A DNA stretch of 64,000 nt from Chitinophagales bacterium (GTDB taxonomy: Bacteria; Bacteroidota; Bacteroidia; Chitinophagales; UBA10324). How positions within the stretch are numbered: position 1 is the first letter of the stretch; every line of letters starts with the position of its first letter. The notes below the pieces were generated by a model, which was not told the DNA's origin, did no database searches, and saw only the letters and a program-made list of their open reading frames with translations. Positions 26,960-35,147 of the stretch are shown here, piece by piece. The position numbers and the translations under genes were made by a program. The stretch spans positions 198,582 through 262,581 of the forward strand of contig JACDDS010000003.1 in assembly GCA_013816805.1 (NCBI GenBank). Reading direction: 5' to 3'.

Positions 26960-28390
26960 TTATTTAATGAATTCATAGCAGCCGATATCCGGATTGTCTG
27001 CTCTTATATTTCCCTCCAGGTCAAAAGCAATATCATTTGGAACTCCCGCATTTATACACGGTGAATTTTCTTTCAGATGGTAATCATCTTTTTGAAAAGG
27101 ATCTGTAAAGAGTGACTGATCATCAATATTGAATAAATCTTGGCTAAATGAGGATGTAGTAGTATCTATATCTGAATTAACTTTTAATAAACAGTGATCG
27201 AAGCTGAAATTAAACAGTGAGGAAGTTTTACTTTCCAGATCTATCTCTTTTTCCAATGATCCATATACAATGCAATTTTTGAATATCGCATTCAAATCAG
27301 CTGTTTTATATTGGGTTACTCCGAATGAGTCTGTGTAGCTATAAAAGTTACTTAGTAACACCACCGGATCATTATGGCTGGTGATAGCAGATGAATAGTC
27401 TGCAAGCGTACAATCCTCAAAATGGTATGTACCACCATAGCCCATTGCTATATCGTTGCTTCCGCAACTATGAATCAGGCAATTTTCCCCATAGATGTCC
27501 CCGGTTAAGCTTAAAATTCCATATCCAAAAGAATAGCGGATAATAGAATTTCGAAGGGTAAGCTTAAAATTTGCAGTTTCACGAAGAGAATCCACCCGTA
27601 TCGCCCAGTTATTTGTTTCCTTAATCAATGCATAGTTTATCTCATTATCATGGCTGCTCCTCAAAAACCAGATACCCTCCCATTGACCAGGAAGGTCAAC
27701 ATAAAATTGCTCCAGCCTGTCTCCCCTGAAAATGACAGAGTCATCCTGCTGTCCGAGGACCTTTAGTGTTCCCTGCACAAAAAAATAGGAATTGCCATGC
27801 ATATATATCCTGCATCCTGGCTGAATAGTTAATGTTTGATTGGAATCCACTAAAATGGAATTCACAATCACGTAAGGCTTATCATTGATCCATGTTTGCG
27901 TTTCAATGCCAACTCCATTATAAAAATGAGCATTTTGCCCCCAGGCTTGTAAAATTACCCTCTGTTCATTTCCATTACTTTCAAACATTACCGAATCATA
28001 TATCACAAAAGGATTGTCCTGGAGGTTAGGGTCTACAGTCACCGATGCAAAGATATAAATGCTGTCTTTTGCCGGAATTTCAACATTTGATATTTCATCA
28101 ACCTGCCTTCCATCGATGTTAAGCCTGAAATAGGAGCTGCTTCCGTTAATGAGACGAATATTAGAGACTTTGATTTTTTTATTATTTGAATTTATCACCT
28201 TAAAATAACGGGTTGCAGAACCAACACTGGTAAAAACAGTATCAAAGGTGAGCGTATCTATCGAGAATGAAAGCTGATCAGAGGGATTGCTGGTGACCAA
28301 ATCCTTCCTGCACGAAGAAAATATACATCCAAAAGCTATTAAAACACACAGAAAAAAGAACAGTCTTAACATGGATTTCACGAACGGCAA
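26960..28390 (-). CDS. Lipoprotein with right-handed beta-helix (parallel beta-helix) domain
   Basis: The 476-residue product starts with a lipoprotein signal ending in the lipobox FSSC (Cys near residue 27), so it is probably lipid-anchored. The N-terminal third is beta-sandwich-like (FKVINSNNKKIKVSNIRL, IFASVTVDPNLQDNP). The middle and C-terminal parts are a repetitive parallel beta-helix (FILRNSIIRYSFGYGI-type turns, ENCLIHSCGSNDIAMG, IFKNCIVYG). The end, SPCINAGVPN then GNIRADNPDIGCYEF, is the typical terminal segment of choice-of-anchor-Q/pectate-lyase-like helices. It may sit on the outer membrane and bind or cleave glycans, but no catalytic residues can be named. An alternative start at residue 7 (MLRLFFFL) is possible. 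Confidence 0.82.
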   Translation of the reverse strand: MPFVKSMLRLFFFLCVLIAFGCIFSSCRKDLVTSNPSDQLSFSIDTLTFDTVFTSVGSATRYFKVINSNNKKIKVSNIRLINGSSSYFRLNIDGRQVDEISNVEIPAKDSIYIFASVTVDPNLQDNPFVIYDSVMFESNGNEQRVILQAWGQNAHFYNGVGIETQTWINDKPYVIVNSILVDSNQTLTIQPGCRIYMHGNSYFFVQGTLKVLGQQDDSVIFRGDRLEQFYVDLPGQWEGIWFLRSSHDNEINYALIKETNNWAIRVDSLRETANFKLTLRNSIIRYSFGYGILSLTGDIYGENCLIHSCGSNDIAMGYGGTYHFEDCTLADYSSAITSHNDPVVLLSNFYSYTDSFGVTQYKTADLNAIFKNCIVYGSLEKEIDLESKTSSLFNFSFDHCLLKVNSDIDTTTSSFSQDLFNIDDQSLFTDPFQKDDYHLKENSPCINAGVPNDIAFDLEGNIRADNPDIGCYEFIK

Positions 28391-28442
28391 AGATCCTTTT
28401 TTATTTCAATTATAGCGACAGATGAGTACGCTGTACTAAAGA

Positions 28443-29143
28443 TTATTGTACTGCACAGGCTATTGTTGCAATGCTTACTGTTGTGGCAGGTATTTCTAAT
28501 ATTGCTCTCGCACTTGCTTCCAGAGTAGAGCCGGTTGTGATAACATCATCACATAATAGAATATGTTTCCCTCAACGGAAGAAGGATGATTAACCATAAA
28601 AAGGGTTTCTACATTTTTCCATCGCTCAAACCTTGATTTATGAGTTTGTGTTTCGGATGCTTTTACCCTTTCAAGGGTATCTTTTTTCCAGGGTTTATTC
28701 ATAGAAATGGATAAGCCCTCACAAAATAAATCCACCTGGTTATAAGCGCGCTGCAGTTCTTTTGAGTAATGGAGAGGCACAGGAGCAATAAGGTCAATAT
28801 TCTTAAAATCTTCGCAATTAACCAGTTCGGAGCCGTAGATCATTCCTATTTTTATTCCTACTTCTTTTTTCCCTTTATATTTAAGCTGGTGAATCAAATG
28901 CTGAACGCTGTTACCCCGCTGAAAAAAATAACACGATGCCGCGCGGTGTATATCTACTCGTCCCCAAAAATGTTTTTCGATAGCATTGTTTTTTTCAAGA
29001 TGAAAATTTGTTTTAGGAAGATAGTATAGGCAAAAGGTGCAGATCACATCTTCACCGCTATTTAATGCGTTTCCGCAGGAAGCACATAATTTCGGGTAAA
29101 AAAGTGAAATAAAGTCACCAATATATTGTGAAGCAATATTCAT
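28443..29143 (-). pseudogene. ComF-family phosphoribosyltransferase-like protein, frameshifted
   Basis: The frame begins at MNIASQYIGDFISLFYPKLC (29143; an ATG at 29182 adds 13 unlikely residues). It has the ComF zinc finger CASCGNA then CTFC, the APVPLHYSKELQRAYNQ motif and the ASETQTHKSRFERW motif. After GVEGN-like residues near 28565-28572 the original frame goes to a premature stop at 28496. The -1/+1 shifted frame instead continues with ILLCDDVITTGSTLE, the exact PRPP-binding loop of ComF, to a stop at 28443. One missing base near the GGGAAAC run explains everything: the restored protein would be 233 residues, or 246 counted from the ATG at 29182, either way a normal ComF length. ComF supports DNA uptake and transformation. 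It may be a true pseudogene, a recoding site or a sequencing error. Confidence 0.8.
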
Positions 29144-29315
29144 AGGCTTATTTAATATACTAATTAACAATATAATGTACAATTAAATGTTTGTTGAGAT
29201 GTTAATATTTATCAGATATTATGTCCGCTCTCACTCATATTAGTTAAGCCTAAATTTATTTTTTTTAAAGTGTTTAGCATTGCATCTTCGTTATGTAATT
29301 TTTAATTTTCTTTAA

Positions 29316-29573
29316 ATGGATAATAAAACACAGGAACTTAAGCAATTTGAAATACCACCCGAAGGGTCTTTAGGTCTTCTGGCGCTTGGAGCTGTAGGCC
29401 TTAGGGCATGGAGACAAGTACGTTCTAAATCCGATTATGAACAAAAATTAATTGATCGGTCTAAGGAGATGGAGAAGGAAATGCAGAAAAAGATGGAAGA
29501 AAGGAAAGTAAAACAGGAAGAAGAAAAAGCGAAACAGCAAGAAATAAAAAACAATGAGCAAACGAATAGCTAA
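29316..29573 (+). CDS. Small protein with conserved hydrophobic core and coiled-coil tail
   Basis: The 85-residue protein has a short glycine/leucine-rich segment, PPEGSLGLLALGAVGLRAWR (residues 14-33). It is followed by a highly charged amphipathic helix (KEMEKEMQKKMEERKVKQEE and beyond), predicted as coiled coil. It is not a classical signal peptide, because charged residues follow the apolar stretch and no cleavage site is seen; it could be a short membrane anchor or a docking segment. Its last 20 bp overlap the start of the phosphodiesterase-TPR-sulfotransferase gene, so the two are translationally coupled and the product is probably an accessory or anchor of that enzyme. I recognise no described family for it. 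Confidence 0.7.
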   Translation: MDNKTQELKQFEIPPEGSLGLLALGAVGLRAWRQVRSKSDYEQKLIDRSKEMEKEMQKKMEERKVKQEEEKAKQQEIKNNEQTNS

Positions 29574-32121
29574 AAAGGTTCTGCTGGTCGGGTGGGATGC
29601 CGCAGACTGGAAAGTGATAAATCCTCTTATGGATAATGGTATTATGCCTACTTTAAATCAGTTCGTTAACGATGGTGTTATAGGAAATCTCGCAACCCTC
29701 GACCCGCCTTTATCACCCATACTCTGGACCTCCATTGCTACCGGCAAGCTGGCTGACAAGCATGGGATTCTTGGATTTGTTGAACCAGACTCTAAAAAGA
29801 TGGAAGTGCGCCCTTCTCTTTCTACGTCGCGCAAAGTGAAGGCAATCTGGAATATACTTTCGCAGGAAGGTTTTAAATCCAATGTAGTTGGATGGTGGCC
29901 CAGCCATCCTGCTGAACCAATTAATGGAGTGATGGTTTCTAATTTCTATCAGAAAGCAGTAAGCGTTTACCATAAGCCATGGCCAATGGCAGCAGGCACA
30001 GTACATCCTAAGGATATGGAAGAAGTAATGCGGGAGATGAGAGTCCATCCCGCAGAACTCACACTTTCTCACATGGCACCTTTTTTCCCAAACTATAAAG
30101 ATATTGATCAGGAAAAAGATGGGCGCATGGCGGCAGGAGCTAAAATTTTAGCCCATTCAGCCAGTATTCATAATGCCGCTACCTGGATCATGGAAAACAC
30201 GGAATGGGATTTCATGGCAGTTTATCATGACGCTATAGATCACTATAGCCATAGTTTTATGAGATTTTATCCTCCCCAACGGCCGGGCATTCCTGACGAT
30301 TTATATCATGCCTATAAAGATGCGGTAAGCGGCATGTACCGGTTTCATGATATGATGCTTGAACGCTACCTTGAACTGGCAGGTGAAGACACTACGGTGA
30401 TTATTATGAGTGATCATGGATTCCATTCTGATCATCTTCGGCCCAACAGATTGCCTAAAGAGCCGGCAGGACCCGCATATGAGCATTCTCCCTATGGAAT
30501 TGTTTGCATTAAGGGCCCGGCTATTCAGACTGACCAGAGGGTTTATGGCGCAACATTGTTGGATATTACTCCAACCCTGTTGACAATGTTTGGATTGCCG
30601 GTGGGAAAAGATATGGATGGAAAGGTGCTTTCTCAAATATTTGAGGAGCCGGTGCAACCAGAGTTTATTGAAAGCTGGGAACAGGTTCCAGGTGATTCAG
30701 GTATGCATGCTGCCGATCAGCAGGAAGATCCATGGGCAGCGAAAGAGGCAATGCAACAATTGGTAGAGCTGGGCTATATTGATGCTCCAGGCGAAGACAA
30801 GCAAAAAAACCTGGATAATGTTACCAGTGAATCTCAGTATTATCTCGCAAGGGTGCTTACTTACCGGAAAGATTGGGCAAAGGCAGCAGAAATACTCGAA
30901 GAGATTTTTACAAAGAACCAGGAGTTGCGCTATGGTCTTGCTTTAATTAATTGCTATCAGAAAATGCGCAAGGTGGCAGAGTACCGCTCAACGCTCGATA
31001 AGGTTAGGGCGCTGGAAGCAGGTAACATGGTAAAGGTAGATATCATGGAGGCTTCACTTCTTTTATTAGAATACAAACCCAGAAAAGCCCTAGAACTGCT
31101 GTTAAAAGCAGAACAGGAAGCAGGCCACATCTCCCAGTTGCATGTACAGATTGGAAGGATTTATCTTAAAAGCCAGCAATATGAAGCTGCAGAGCGTGCT
31201 TTCATCAAGGCTTTGTCAATTGATTCCCAGCAGGCGAATGCACATCATGGTCTTGCCCTTACTTATCTCCGGCAGGAAAAATTTGAAGAAGCGGCTGAAG
31301 AATGCCTTAACGCAATTGGTCTCTCCTATTACTATCCAATTGCACATTTTCACCTCGGCGAGGCGCTCATGAACCTGGAGGAATATGAACGTGCTGCAGA
31401 TGCCTTTGAAGTGTGCTGTGCTATTGCGCCCGGTAATAGAAAAGCGCATTTATGGCTCATTAAATTGTACGAAGAAAAATTAAATAATAATTCGAAAGCA
31501 GAGGAGCATCGCAAATTTATTAATGAAAGAATAAAGGGCACCATAACCGTGGTTACCGGTTTGCCTCGTTCCGGAACATCTATGATGATGCAAATGCTGG
31601 AGGCCGGTGGTGAGGAAATTCTTACTGATAAAATACGCACTCCTGATGAAAATAATCCGAAAGGCTATTGGGAATTTGAGAAGGTAAAAAAAGTGATGAC
31701 CGATGTATCCTGGCTTGATGAAGCAACAGGTAAAGTTGTGAAGATAGTGGCTCCGCTTTTAAGTTACCTTCCTCCGAAATATGATTATAAAATTATTTTT
31801 ATGCAAAGGGATATGGCGGAAATATTACGCTCGCAGCAAATTATGCTTGGCAAAAAAACTGAAATCAGGAAGAATGCCTATCCTATTGTATTAAGCGAAG
31901 CCTTTAAAAAACAGTTAGAGCAGGCTGAGGCATGGCTGAAACGTTCTCCTAATGCAGAGTTGTTGTATGTTGATTATACCAGTGTAATTGATAACCCCTC
32001 TGAATCGGCAGAAAATGTAGCAGAATTTTTAGGGGCAGAACTTAATATTCAGGCTATGACCGAAGTCGTTGATATTGCATTATATCGAAACAGAGCATCT
32101 GTTGGAGATGAAAAAAAATAG
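29554..32121 (+). CDS. Alkaline-phosphatase-superfamily phosphodiesterase / TPR / sulfotransferase-like fusion
   Basis: The 855-residue protein combines three parts. Residues 8-390 form a type I phosphodiesterase/nucleotide pyrophosphatase-like domain with the metal ligands visible: WDAADW (Asp15), nucleophile Thr59 in ILWTSIATGK, DKHGI at 68-72, YHDAIDHYSH and MSDHGFHSDH. Residues about 428-645 hold TPR-like helical repeats (for example GRIYLKSQQYEAAERAFIKA and ALTYLRQEKFEEAAEE). Residues about 660-855 begin with VVTGLPRSGTSMMMQML, the 5'-phosphosulfate-binding P-loop of sulfotransferases, followed by RTPDENNPKGYWEFE and IIFMQRDMAEILRSQQ, which resemble the 3'-phosphate-binding Arg/Ser region. 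There is no signal peptide. The chemistry suggests hydrolysis of a phospho- or sulfo-ester plus sulfuryl transfer, but substrate and pathway are unknown. Confidence 0.9.
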   Translation: MSKRIAKKVLLVGWDAADWKVINPLMDNGIMPTLNQFVNDGVIGNLATLDPPLSPILWTSIATGKLADKHGILGFVEPDSKKMEVRPSLSTSRKVKAIWNILSQEGFKSNVVGWWPSHPAEPINGVMVSNFYQKAVSVYHKPWPMAAGTVHPKDMEEVMREMRVHPAELTLSHMAPFFPNYKDIDQEKDGRMAAGAKILAHSASIHNAATWIMENTEWDFMAVYHDAIDHYSHSFMRFYPPQRPGIPDDLYHAYKDAVSGMYRFHDMMLERYLELAGEDTTVIIMSDHGFHSDHLRPNRLPKEPAGPAYEHSPYGIVCIKGPAIQTDQRVYGATLLDITPTLLTMFGLPVGKDMDGKVLSQIFEEPVQPEFIESWEQVPGDSGMHAADQQEDPWAAKEAMQQLVELGYIDAPGEDKQKNLDNVTSESQYYLARVLTYRKDWAKAAEILEEIFTKNQELRYGLALINCYQKMRKVAEYRSTLDKVRALEAGNMVKVDIMEASLLLLEYKPRKALELLLKAEQEAGHISQLHVQIGRIYLKSQQYEAAERAFIKALSIDSQQANAHHGLALTYLRQEKFEEAAEECLNAIGLSYYYPIAHFHLGEALMNLEEYERAADAFEVCCAIAPGNRKAHLWLIKLYEEKLNNNSKAEEHRKFINERIKGTITVVTGLPRSGTSMMMQMLEAGGEEILTDKIRTPDENNPKGYWEFEKVKKVMTDVSWLDEATGKVVKIVAPLLSYLPPKYDYKIIFMQRDMAEILRSQQIMLGKKTEIRKNAYPIVLSEAFKKQLEQAEAWLKRSPNAELLYVDYTSVIDNPSESAENVAEFLGAELNIQAMTEVVDIALYRNRASVGDEKK

Positions 32122-32179: not shown

Positions 32180-33073
32180 CTAATTTGTTAATGCAATTTT
32201 AACCGAAAATGTTTTCCCGTCATTATATACAGTGGCTATATATACACCCATTGGTAAATCGGATACGTTAATGTGACTGGTCGACTTCGACAACTCAACA
32301 TTTTTTACTATTTGACCCAACACACTTCTAAGTTCTAATTGAGCATTGTTTAAAACAGAATTATCCATTATAATATTAAGTATGCCGTCATAAGCATAAA
32401 TATTTATCTTTAAATCAGCTACAGCATTAATTCCTGTCGGATCACCCTGGCCTGCAAAAACAGGCTGCCCGGCTTTAGGATTATAGGCATAGTCTTTCAA
32501 TTTTATAGATTGTCCGTCTTCACTGACTGAACAGCGAACCCATCCATAAAATTGGCTGCTGTCTTTTGTTATGCGAAGAGGCATATACATGTCTTCTACA
32601 CCAAACCAATTTCCATAAGGACTGGCTTTATAGGTATAAGCAATTTGGGCAGGAAAAAAATAGGTTTGATTATTATATTGAAAAAGCAGGTCTTTTAAGT
32701 CAAAAAATTTAACTGCGGTATCAATTTTCTCACTCATGGAAAAGACATACGGATAGCCGTAATTTCCATCAAATGCATTCTTTTTTAAAGACCCCCCAAC
32801 AGCATTATATACGCCGGCTGCCTGACTATAGCCAGGTGTCATTACAGCACCTTTGCCATTTCCGGCTAAATCCATTGTAAATGTATAATCACCAGTTCCA
32901 TCATTATTCAGATCCAGAATATATTGAGCCTGGTCTGTGTTCAGTGTTGTATCCGGTGAAATATCTGTATATACTACCTGCGCATTTGCAGCTGCAGCGC
33001 TTGAAAGCACTGTTCCTACAGAAGCAGAATAGGCTTTTAGTTTGTTTAAAAGTGTAGATTTTTCGTTTTTCAT
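32180..33073 (-). CDS. T9SS-secreted protein with KLKxYSA-type leader
   Basis: The 297-residue protein begins with the atypical leader KNEKSTLLNKLKAYSASVGT, then SSAAAANAQ, where cleavage is expected after ANAQ. The body opens VVYTDISPDTTLNTDQAQYI and has DLNNDGTGDYTFTMD, an Asp-rich calcium-binding-like loop. Mid-protein, WFGVEDMYMPLRI and GWVRCSVSEDGQSIKLKDYA suggest a beta-sandwich. The C-terminus is a T9SS sorting domain (IYAYDGILNIIM, LELRSVLGQIVKN, LPMGVYIATVYNDGKTFSVK). The divergent neighbour at 33334-34215 is a clear paralogue, so the pair arose by duplication with inversion. The domain is not a recognised enzyme family. A -7 box TAAGTTTG lies upstream at 33088-33095. Confidence 0.85.
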   Translation of the reverse strand: MKNEKSTLLNKLKAYSASVGTVLSSAAAANAQVVYTDISPDTTLNTDQAQYILDLNNDGTGDYTFTMDLAGNGKGAVMTPGYSQAAGVYNAVGGSLKKNAFDGNYGYPYVFSMSEKIDTAVKFFDLKDLLFQYNNQTYFFPAQIAYTYKASPYGNWFGVEDMYMPLRITKDSSQFYGWVRCSVSEDGQSIKLKDYAYNPKAGQPVFAGQGDPTGINAVADLKINIYAYDGILNIIMDNSVLNNAQLELRSVLGQIVKNVELSKSTSHINVSDLPMGVYIATVYNDGKTFSVKIALTN

Positions 33074-33333: not shown

Positions 33334-34215
33334 ATGAAAAAAGATTACTCTAGTCTCATTAAAAAGTTAAAACAATATTCAGCCCTTGCTGCTCCTTTAA
33401 TAGGGGCTGCAACTGCAGCCAACGCTCAAATTGTTTATACAAATGTTCAACCTGATGCCACCATTTCAAAAAATCAGCAAGGTTATCCCATTGATTTGGA
33501 TCAGGATGGCACAAATGATTTTATTATCGGTGTAATAGATACAGTGGTTCAATTTAGCGATAAAGATTACTTCTTCCATGAAGTTCTCGCTGATCCTTAT
33601 AATGACAATTCTGTTGTAGCTACCACCTTTCAAAGTAATGGATTCACCTTTGTTTACCCTATATATTTTAATAAAGGAAACGTTATTAAGCCTGAGTTAG
33701 GATGGAATAATGCAGCTTCTCAGACAATGGCTGATTTCCAGGGTTACGTATCAACCAACGGAAATGGATATGGCAGCTGGAATAATGTTACAGATAAATA
33801 TCTGGGTTTACGGATTAAAAAGGGCAGCAAGGAATATTATGGTTGGGCCCGGTTAGATATAAAAGCATCAAAGGATACCGTTTATTTCACACTAAAAGAT
33901 TATGCTGTTCAATCTACTCCGGATACAGCCATCGAGGCAGGGGATAATGGTGGTGTACCCACAGGAATTTTTCAGACTACAACTAATGACATAGCCATTT
34001 TTGCATACGAAAATCAGGTACACGTTTCGGCTCCTTCTTCATCGAAAGGCTCAATGCTGATCCGCTTAATGAATATGCAGGGGCAGGATGTAAAAGTTTA
34101 TTCTGTTAACCAAAATCAATATCAATTTACAGTTGCGGATCTTCCAAGAGGGCTCTACATGGTATCTGTAGAACAGGAGGGGACTATTAAAACCAGGAAA
34201 ATTTCTTTAAGATAA
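33334..34215 (+). CDS. T9SS-secreted protein with KLKxYSA-type leader (paralogue)
   Basis: I place the start at 33334 (MKKDYSSLIKKLKQYSALAA) because the upstream 42 residues of the open frame lack coding character and the leader here aligns with that of the divergent paralogue. The leader ends near ATAANAQ. The body starts IVYTNVQPDATISKNQQGYP and has DLDQDGTNDFIIG, again a calcium-loop-like motif. YLGLRIKKGSKEYYGWARLD matches a conserved position of the paralogue. The 293-residue protein ends in a T9SS type A domain (FAYENQVHVSAPSSSKGS, LMNMQGQDVKVYSV, LPRGLYMVSVEQEG). It is exported by the type IX system; its target is unknown. A strong bidirectional terminator follows at 34227-34272. Confidence 0.86.
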   Translation: MKKDYSSLIKKLKQYSALAAPLIGAATAANAQIVYTNVQPDATISKNQQGYPIDLDQDGTNDFIIGVIDTVVQFSDKDYFFHEVLADPYNDNSVVATTFQSNGFTFVYPIYFNKGNVIKPELGWNNAASQTMADFQGYVSTNGNGYGSWNNVTDKYLGLRIKKGSKEYYGWARLDIKASKDTVYFTLKDYAVQSTPDTAIEAGDNGGVPTGIFQTTTNDIAIFAYENQVHVSAPSSSKGSMLIRLMNMQGQDVKVYSVNQNQYQFTVADLPRGLYMVSVEQEGTIKTRKISLR

Positions 34216-34277: not shown

Positions 34278-35147
34278 TTATTTAGGGCAGTTAAATTCTT
34301 CTGTATTCAGGCAATGTCCTTTCTTATCAATATAAAATTGCTTGCTTTTCATCTCTACAAGGGCACGGCCATCTTCAAACGTTCCCAGCTTATCATAAAC
34401 CATAGGAATAGTGATCGTATTATTTAAATCAATATAGCCACCCTTATCCCCAATCATAACACCGGCTAAATCCTCTGAAAAAAGAAATGCGTAATCGTAT
34501 TCAGGTTTTATTATTTCTGCACCCTGACGGTTTATATATCCCCATTTATTGCTTTTGTTAACCGGTGCGAGCCCTTCTGAAAATTCACCTATCTCCAGGT
34601 ACTTCATAGGTATTACAAAATTTCCTTTTTGATCGATTATGCCGGCTAAACCATTTTTTTCAACTACAGCCAAACCCTGGGAAAAAGGCATGCAATAATC
34701 ATAAGTAATCGGAATTACCACAGTTCCGGATTTATCGAGATACCCAGCCTCTTCATCTTTTATGATTACAGCAAGACCTTCACTAAAGCTATTCACCTCT
34801 TCATATTGCAATGGCACAACTATTTTTCCGGATTTGTCTATAAATCCCCAACTATTTCCATCGCTTACTGCAGCCAGGCCTTCAGAAAAAGAATTCACTT
34901 CTGCAAACTGAGGTGGAATAACCTCTTTCCCTGATTTATCAATAAAGCCAAATTTATCTCCTCTCTCAACGGCGGCCACACCTTCTGCAAAAGAAAATAA
35001 CTGCTGGTATTTTGCAGGTACTATTACTTTGCCACCGACGGATTCTTTAATCCCATAAAGGTTGTTTTCTTCAAAAGATTCGAGTTGCTGCGCCACGGCA
35101 CGTAAACCTATAAATGTAATTAATATACAAGCCAATAGTTTGTTCAT
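34278..35147 (-). CDS. Exported WG-repeat protein
   Basis: The 289-residue protein has a signal peptide (MNKLLACILITFIGLRAVAQ). It is then composed of seven to eight repeats of about 34 residues with consensus WGFIDKSGKxVIPxxYxxxxxFSEGLAxV (the KWG/WG repeat family). The repeats are spaced regularly from about residue 30 to 275, forming a beta-rich solenoid. The C-terminus carries two cysteines (HCLNTEEFNC). WG-repeat proteins are common in Bacteroidota and usually surface or periplasmic, but their function is not established. It converges on the T9SS gene and is divergent from guaB. Confidence 0.88.
   Translation of the reverse strand: MNKLLACILITFIGLRAVAQQLESFEENNLYGIKESVGGKVIVPAKYQQLFSFAEGVAAVERGDKFGFIDKSGKEVIPPQFAEVNSFSEGLAAVSDGNSWGFIDKSGKIVVPLQYEEVNSFSEGLAVIIKDEEAGYLDKSGTVVIPITYDYCMPFSQGLAVVEKNGLAGIIDQKGNFVIPMKYLEIGEFSEGLAPVNKSNKWGYINRQGAEIIKPEYDYAFLFSEDLAGVMIGDKGGYIDLNNTITIPMVYDKLGTFEDGRALVEMKSKQFYIDKKGHCLNTEEFNCPK

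Follow-up and report, generated by a model that had tools for sequence, protein, structure and literature searches.

To our knowledge, very few worked examples of protein sulfation are known in bacteria. Human TPST1/2 are Golgi membrane enzymes, the characterised phosphodiesterases of the NPP type are extracytoplasmic, and in O-GlcNAc transferase (OGT) and SPINDLY, a TPR superhelix is fused to an enzyme that transfers a sugar to proteins. In the PEP-CTERM/exosortase system, a common tag places many secreted proteins under one enzyme. For bacteria, sulfation of tyrosine in a secreted peptide is described with RaxST/RaxX of Xanthomonas (PMC6637879). Here, we describe a locus in a window of 64,000 nucleotides (the whole stretch of DNA that was analysed), in which one gene, referred to as B, is predicted to encode a phosphodiesterase, a TPR region, and a sulfotransferase in a single polypeptide and is accompanied by a small gene (A) and by genes of secreted proteins (C). 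Because the partner genes A and C indicate secreted proteins as the likely target, an undescribed system that modifies such proteins is probably built around B.

Gene B is an ATG-to-stop ORF, which a preliminary description of this DNA had placed at the same coordinates, and its features were located as follows.

29554-32121, forward strand: gene B, a PDE-TPR-sulfotransferase protein of 855 amino acids (from the ORF, Pfam, and AlphaFold2)
29578-30648, forward strand: NPP-type phosphodiesterase (PDE) domain, approximately residues 9-365 (from PF01663, Foldseek, and conservation)
30799-31527, forward strand: TPR superhelix, approximately residues 416-658 (from the TPR Pfam models, paired helices in the model, and Foldseek)
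31537-32073, forward strand: sulfotransferase (ST) domain, approximately residues 662-840 (from PF13469, PF00685, the model, Foldseek, and a profile against PDB sequences)
31558-31599, forward strand: predicted 5'-phosphosulfate-binding P-loop GLPRSGTSMMMQML, residues 669-682 (intact in approximately 95 of 105 homologues)
31807-31833, forward strand: predicted 3'-phosphate-binding segment R752...S760, RDMAEILRS (from homologue conservation)

The order of domains was NPP-type PDE, TPR superhelix, and C-terminal PAPS-type ST. Each Pfam match of B (PF01663, the TPR models, PF13469, and PF00685) exceeded its curated cut-off, and the AlphaFold2 model, built from a 22-sequence alignment, reached a mean pLDDT of 85.6. 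As 105 distinct full-length homologues were aligned with B from end to end, the layout is due neither to chance nor to an assembly fusion.

Phosphodiest (PF01663) was matched by residues 9-291 (E=3.4e-25, 89.8 bits against a cut-off of 23), and the Foldseek search against the PDB assigned the N-terminal part to the AlkP/NPP fold, with snake-venom PDE, ENPP1, and Xac NPP (2gsn) as matches. The conserved set of the site comprised the Thr nucleophile T59 and six metal ligands, D15, D229, H233, D287, H288, and H311; D229, D287, H288, and H311 were kept in 99 of the 105 full-length homologues, and T59 was replaced by Ser in nine. By profile, predicted fold, and ligand set, the N-terminal domain is a type I phosphodiesterase/NPP.

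Residues 666-840 matched Sulfotransfer_3 (PF13469, E=4.9e-11) and Sulfotransfer_1 (PF00685, E=1.3e-7). GLPRSGTS of the P-loop was nearly invariant, as were R752 (kept in 104 of 105 homologues) and S760 (100 of 105), and the conserved residues D692, R695, D698, N701, and E707 are candidates for the catalytic base. A separate model of the C-terminal 211 residues (pLDDT of 89.8) had sulfotransferases as its top Foldseek matches, several of them with PAP; Teg12 and human TPST2 came first, and StaL, 3-O-sulfotransferases, and NDST were also matched. A profile of the domain searched against the sequences of solved structures retrieved essentially sulfotransferases only. From its profile and predicted fold, the C-terminal domain is a sulfotransferase and not a kinase or other NTPase.

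Several TPR Pfam models matched at approximately residues 425-650, and the TPR proteins found by Foldseek included OGT and SPINDLY among the closest folds. As these two modify proteins, a scaffold role of the TPR region, judged from the model, is plausible.

The preliminary description had called these three domains from the letters alone, and the calls were borne out by Pfam, the predicted folds, and conservation. All motifs that it quoted for an intact phosphatase-superfamily site were present; D226, the first Asp of DAIDHYSH, was rejected as a metal ligand because it is replaced in some homologues, and it does not belong to the core set. The sulfotransferase idea, set there against a kinase or NTPase fold of the P-loop segment and against homologues with an always separate and unlinked ST, agreed with the predicted fold, and a detached ST was confined to a small number of derived loci (L128, L133, and possibly L112), where it adjoins the PDE-TPR protein. 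The statement that no characterised member has this layout also holds: in the open-access literature, no description was found of the domain combination, of the GSLGLLALG motif of A, or of PEP-CTERM together with a sulfotransferase. No whole-protein name for B, A, or the N-terminal region of C was found in Pfam, NCBIfam, PHROGs, or PADLOC. Assignment of B to an anti-phage defence system was rejected, with 0 PADLOC families matching, and so was an origin as a phage or plasmid gene: there was no phage match, and the plasmid matches listed covered the PDE region only, mostly in haloarchaea.

B was present in 43 of 399 genomes of the same order and in two of 396 genomes of a phylum sample. When 84,980 species genomes were scanned, 508 relatives were obtained. 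Among the best 80 of the 508, the match spanned nearly the whole length, and these were assigned to Bacteroidota, Acidobacteriota, Thiotrichales (relatives of Beggiatoa, Thioploca, and Thiomargarita), a Nitrospirota, a Planctomycetota, and a Kryptoniota bin; most of them are metagenome bins, and single phylum placements may be wrong. Across the phyla, single-copy B proteins almost always had both active sites intact.

The preliminary description was correct in its domain calls for B but had overlooked a small ORF directly upstream, as well as the kinship of the downstream genes. This ORF, A, overlaps the start of B by 20 nt.

29316-29573, forward strand: A, a small ORF of 85 amino acids plus stop with the motif EGSLGLLALGAVGLRAWRQVR, overlapping B (HMM match in its own genome, E=2.3e-19)

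The A motif is near-constant (EGSLGLLALGxxGLxAWRxxR), and A was located upstream of B in most loci. Counts of A by a simple motif regex are lower bounds, as the strict pattern misses divergent copies. When the A HMM was run over the 399 genomes, A was found in 41, B in 43, and both in 40 (hypergeometric p ~3e-50, phylogeny not corrected for). Three genomes had B only: in two of them B was fragmentary or lay at the beginning of a contig, and the third was 72% complete; the single A-only genome had a weak HMM match. In the family of the window, A was found in 11 of 12 genomes with B and in none of the four without it. A is thus near-obligately paired with B.

In one bin (L092), the A motif precedes B in a single reading frame as an N-terminal fusion. 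In the acidobacterium Candidatus Sulfotelmatobacter (L112:1-495 and L166), the motif, there PQPATLGLLANGACGLKAWRRREEMN, was the C-terminal end of secreted proteins of the C type, which suggests a new family of C-terminal tags. As a PEP-CTERM-type signal, A did not reach the NCBIfam cut-off; the best match was NF050011 PFE_CTERM (15.6 bits against 24, E=0.019). The Ser of the motif (G[S/T]LG) was rejected as the modified residue, as Met or Ala takes its place in Thiotrichaceae and further groups, and A is therefore unlikely to be modified there. We propose that the motif is a docking helix and not a modified residue.

Two members of the secreted C family follow B.

32180-33073, reverse strand: C1, a secreted protein with the N-terminus KLKAYSA...ANAQVVYTDISPD and a C-terminal T9SS sorting domain (HMM match, E=2.6e-26)
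33334-34215, forward strand: C2, a second secreted C member, with the ORF called from 33208 and a likely start at 33334 (HMM match, E=1.4e-28)

Both matched Por_Secre_tail (PF18962; 31.9 and 33 bits against a cut-off of 27), which marks them as type IX secretion cargo. The N-terminus of the family is roughly KLxxYSAxA...AxAQ[VI]VYTD[IV]xPD...LDLNxDGxxDF, and members in Bacteroidota end in a type IX sorting domain. C was encoded within 300 bp of B on the same strand in 52 of 99 loci; 38 loci had no C neighbour, some of them being short contigs. A strong C N-terminus was found in 30 genomes, 25 of which had B (p ~2e-23, phylogeny not corrected for). The genome of the window has nine strong C members (13 in all), spread over several sites, against a single A and a single B, as would be expected if one enzyme served many clients. 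At 306-332 kb of its contig C1 (G000), away from the A-B locus, six or more secreted proteins of the C family are clustered. Within the acidic QVVYTDIxPD of the mature N-terminus, a Tyr was nearly invariant in one branch only, and its candidacy as a sulfation site is doubtful. As the divergent N-terminus of C in Saprospiraceae has no YTD motif, a Tyr acceptor would not be general.

An operon of the window extending beyond A-B-C was rejected, as ComF, murB, and other housekeeping neighbours recur in close relatives only. The gene of a ComF-like phosphoribosyltransferase (28380-29182, reverse strand) is frameshifted near its end, with the conserved GKHILLCDDVITTGSTLEASA in another frame, and is intact in a relative (L007); the frameshift reflects either a pseudogene or a sequencing error. 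A WG beta-repeat protein with seven repeats is encoded beside the C genes (34278-35147, reverse strand). Small Phage-tail-collar-like (Mdp-like) proteins were observed near B in seven to eight loci.

The supply of PAPS was examined through APS kinase, which adjoins B in six loci and is fused to ATP sulfurylase in one of them (L113). APS kinase was encoded in 28 of 28 genomes with B and in 30 of 52 without it, a contrast confounded by phylogeny, as most negatives belong to one family. The genome of the window carries cysC-sat, so PAPS is available, and no member of the PAPS-reductase family (PF01507) was found in it; its PAPS is therefore probably made for sulfation. As approximately eight other sulfotransferases are encoded in this genome, cysC-sat does not point to B alone. 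A cluster of PF13469 sulfotransferases lies beside cysQ at 28-49 kb of contig C1, with cysC-sat elsewhere.

Seven genomes had two copies of B, present or traceable and mostly adjacent (L034/L035, L031/L036, L037, L040, L041, and L032, in which the partner is truncated; L038 and L039 lie on separate contigs of a single genome). Every complete pair included a copy that had lost the PDE ligands (SDHG changed to SQGG, SECG, or similar, and D15 to G or S) yet carried GLPRSGTSMMMQML. The other copy kept every PDE ligand and had a relaxed or destroyed P-loop (GFARSGTS, FKRGGST, FKEGGDH, RRAGTS); in the L031 copy, the P-loop was still near intact (GFPRSGTS). All the PDE-dead copies fell in one clade of the tree and all their partners in another, and the simplest reading of these sequences is thus one duplication followed by complementary decay of the two copies. 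An independent case was found in Flavobacteriales (L128 and L133), in which an ST-dead B stands beside a separate intact ST gene of 191-196 amino acids. One PDE and one ST were kept per genome in every split or decayed case seen, and loss of an active site was seen only where a neighbour retains that site. The complementary loss in tandem paralogues and the separate ST of L128 and L133 support the view that the two predicted activities serve one pathway but do not prove that they share a substrate.

Two further observations were made at such loci. A stand-alone ST domain with a C-terminal extension, perhaps methyltransferase-like, is encoded near a tandem pair (L040:1340-2488), and secreted proteins of approximately 1100 amino acids with FG-GAP-like repeats occur at tandem-pair or Saprospiraceae loci (L035:2925-6338, L040, L041, and L044:4067-7384).

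Our main reading, to which we assign a probability of roughly 0.5, is that a cytosolic B, as the centre of the module A-B-C, modifies the secreted C family before or during export through sulfation and phosphodiester hydrolysis. No signal peptide was evident in B, and from this we infer its cytosolic location. The TPR superhelix would hold the client, which may be a C protein or an A peptide presenting C. The C-terminal domain would transfer sulfuryl from PAPS to the client itself or to an attached moiety, with the PAPS supplied by APS kinase, sometimes encoded adjacent. The NPP-type domain, with its Thr nucleophile and two-metal site, may hydrolyse or transfer a phosphodiester, either of the same client or of a pathway intermediate. 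We likewise infer C as the client, the order of the steps, and the substrate of the PDE. A more specific form of this reading is put forward tentatively: the docking motif A, either a small protein acting in trans or a C-terminal tag acting in cis, may bring C to a two-headed B that rewrites a phosphodiester to a sulfate mark, the heads being split into a paralogue pair in some lineages of this undescribed system of several phyla.

Somewhat unlikely, although the best surviving of the alternatives, is that the substrate of B is a small molecule, glycolipid, or glycan which C then displays or carries, with C as the carrier and A as an accessory. Such substrates are frequent for bacterial sulfotransferases, lipid or sugar phosphates are frequent substrates of AlkP-fold enzymes, and the matches of the ST fold to Teg12, StaL, 3-O-sulfotransferases, and NDST would fit, as would the glycosyltransferase-like genes near B in three loci. 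However, no conserved glycan operon accompanies B, whose constant partners are A and C only, and a protein client fits better with the TPR array and with the TPST-like fold of the ST.

The main role of B could also be that of a TPR targeting factor by which C is exported or attached to the surface, with A as a PEP-CTERM-like docking or sorting signal and the enzyme domains as sensors or gates. The resemblance of the A motif to a short sorting tag (the PFE_CTERM match below the cut-off), its place as the tail of C-type proteins in one acidobacterium, and the T9SS sorting domains of C in Bacteroidota are in line with such a role, which we nevertheless regard as quite unlikely: the two complete active sites are strictly conserved and each is retained by a different paralogue, which favours catalysis.

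Sulfotransferases are inhibited by PAP, and nucleotide phosphodiesters are substrates of NPP-type enzymes, so the PDE might merely service the ST, for instance by degrading PAP or surplus PAPS, and leave a single product-forming reaction. The fusion and the complementary retention fit such coupled chemistry, but this is improbable given that CysQ, a dedicated PAP phosphatase, was found in the genome of the window and in nearly all B-containing genomes tested, and that other sulfotransferases occur in the same genome. That the PDE-ST fusion is incidental, with one or both domains inactive relics, can practically be dismissed, for although some paralogues have lost one site, single-copy B proteins nearly always have the two sites intact, and loss was observed only where a neighbour keeps the site.

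A-B-C can be regarded as a widespread module with defined partners and, in some loci, its own PAPS supply, and A as an unnamed small-protein family whose near-constant motif is unrecognised by Pfam and NCBIfam. The complementary decay of the paralogues provides a natural 'mutant series' for the keeping together of two chemistries. The module also opens a directly testable route to the identity of the sulfated surface proteins in Bacteroidota and other phyla, and to the purpose of their sulfation.

We know of no system that combines features of TPST/RaxST, OGT/SPINDLY, and PEP-CTERM as A-B-C does. Human TPST1/2, among the top structural matches, have the ST fold, the PRSGT P-loop, and the 3'-phosphate Arg/Ser in common with B but are without TPR or PDE domains. 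In RaxST/RaxX, compared by description, a bacterial sulfotransferase gene likewise adjoins the gene of a secreted polypeptide client; RaxX is, however, unrelated to the C proteins, and RaxST presumably has no PDE, TPR domain, or A-type partner. Xac NPP (2gsn) and ENPP1 share the fold, the Thr nucleophile, and the two-metal ligand set with B, which, unlike the characterised extracytoplasmic NPPs, lacks an evident signal peptide and carries TPR-ST in the same chain. OGT and SPINDLY resemble B in joining a TPR superhelix to a protein-modifying group-transfer enzyme, whereas their transferase fold is a different one, the group is a sugar, and a second enzyme is absent. Finally, although A is mostly a free protein instead of a C-terminal tail and falls below the NCBIfam cut-off, its motif resembles the PEP-CTERM tag in its P/E, hydrophobic stretch, and basic end, and the module resembles PEP-CTERM/exosortase in pairing a common tag and many secreted proteins with one enzyme.
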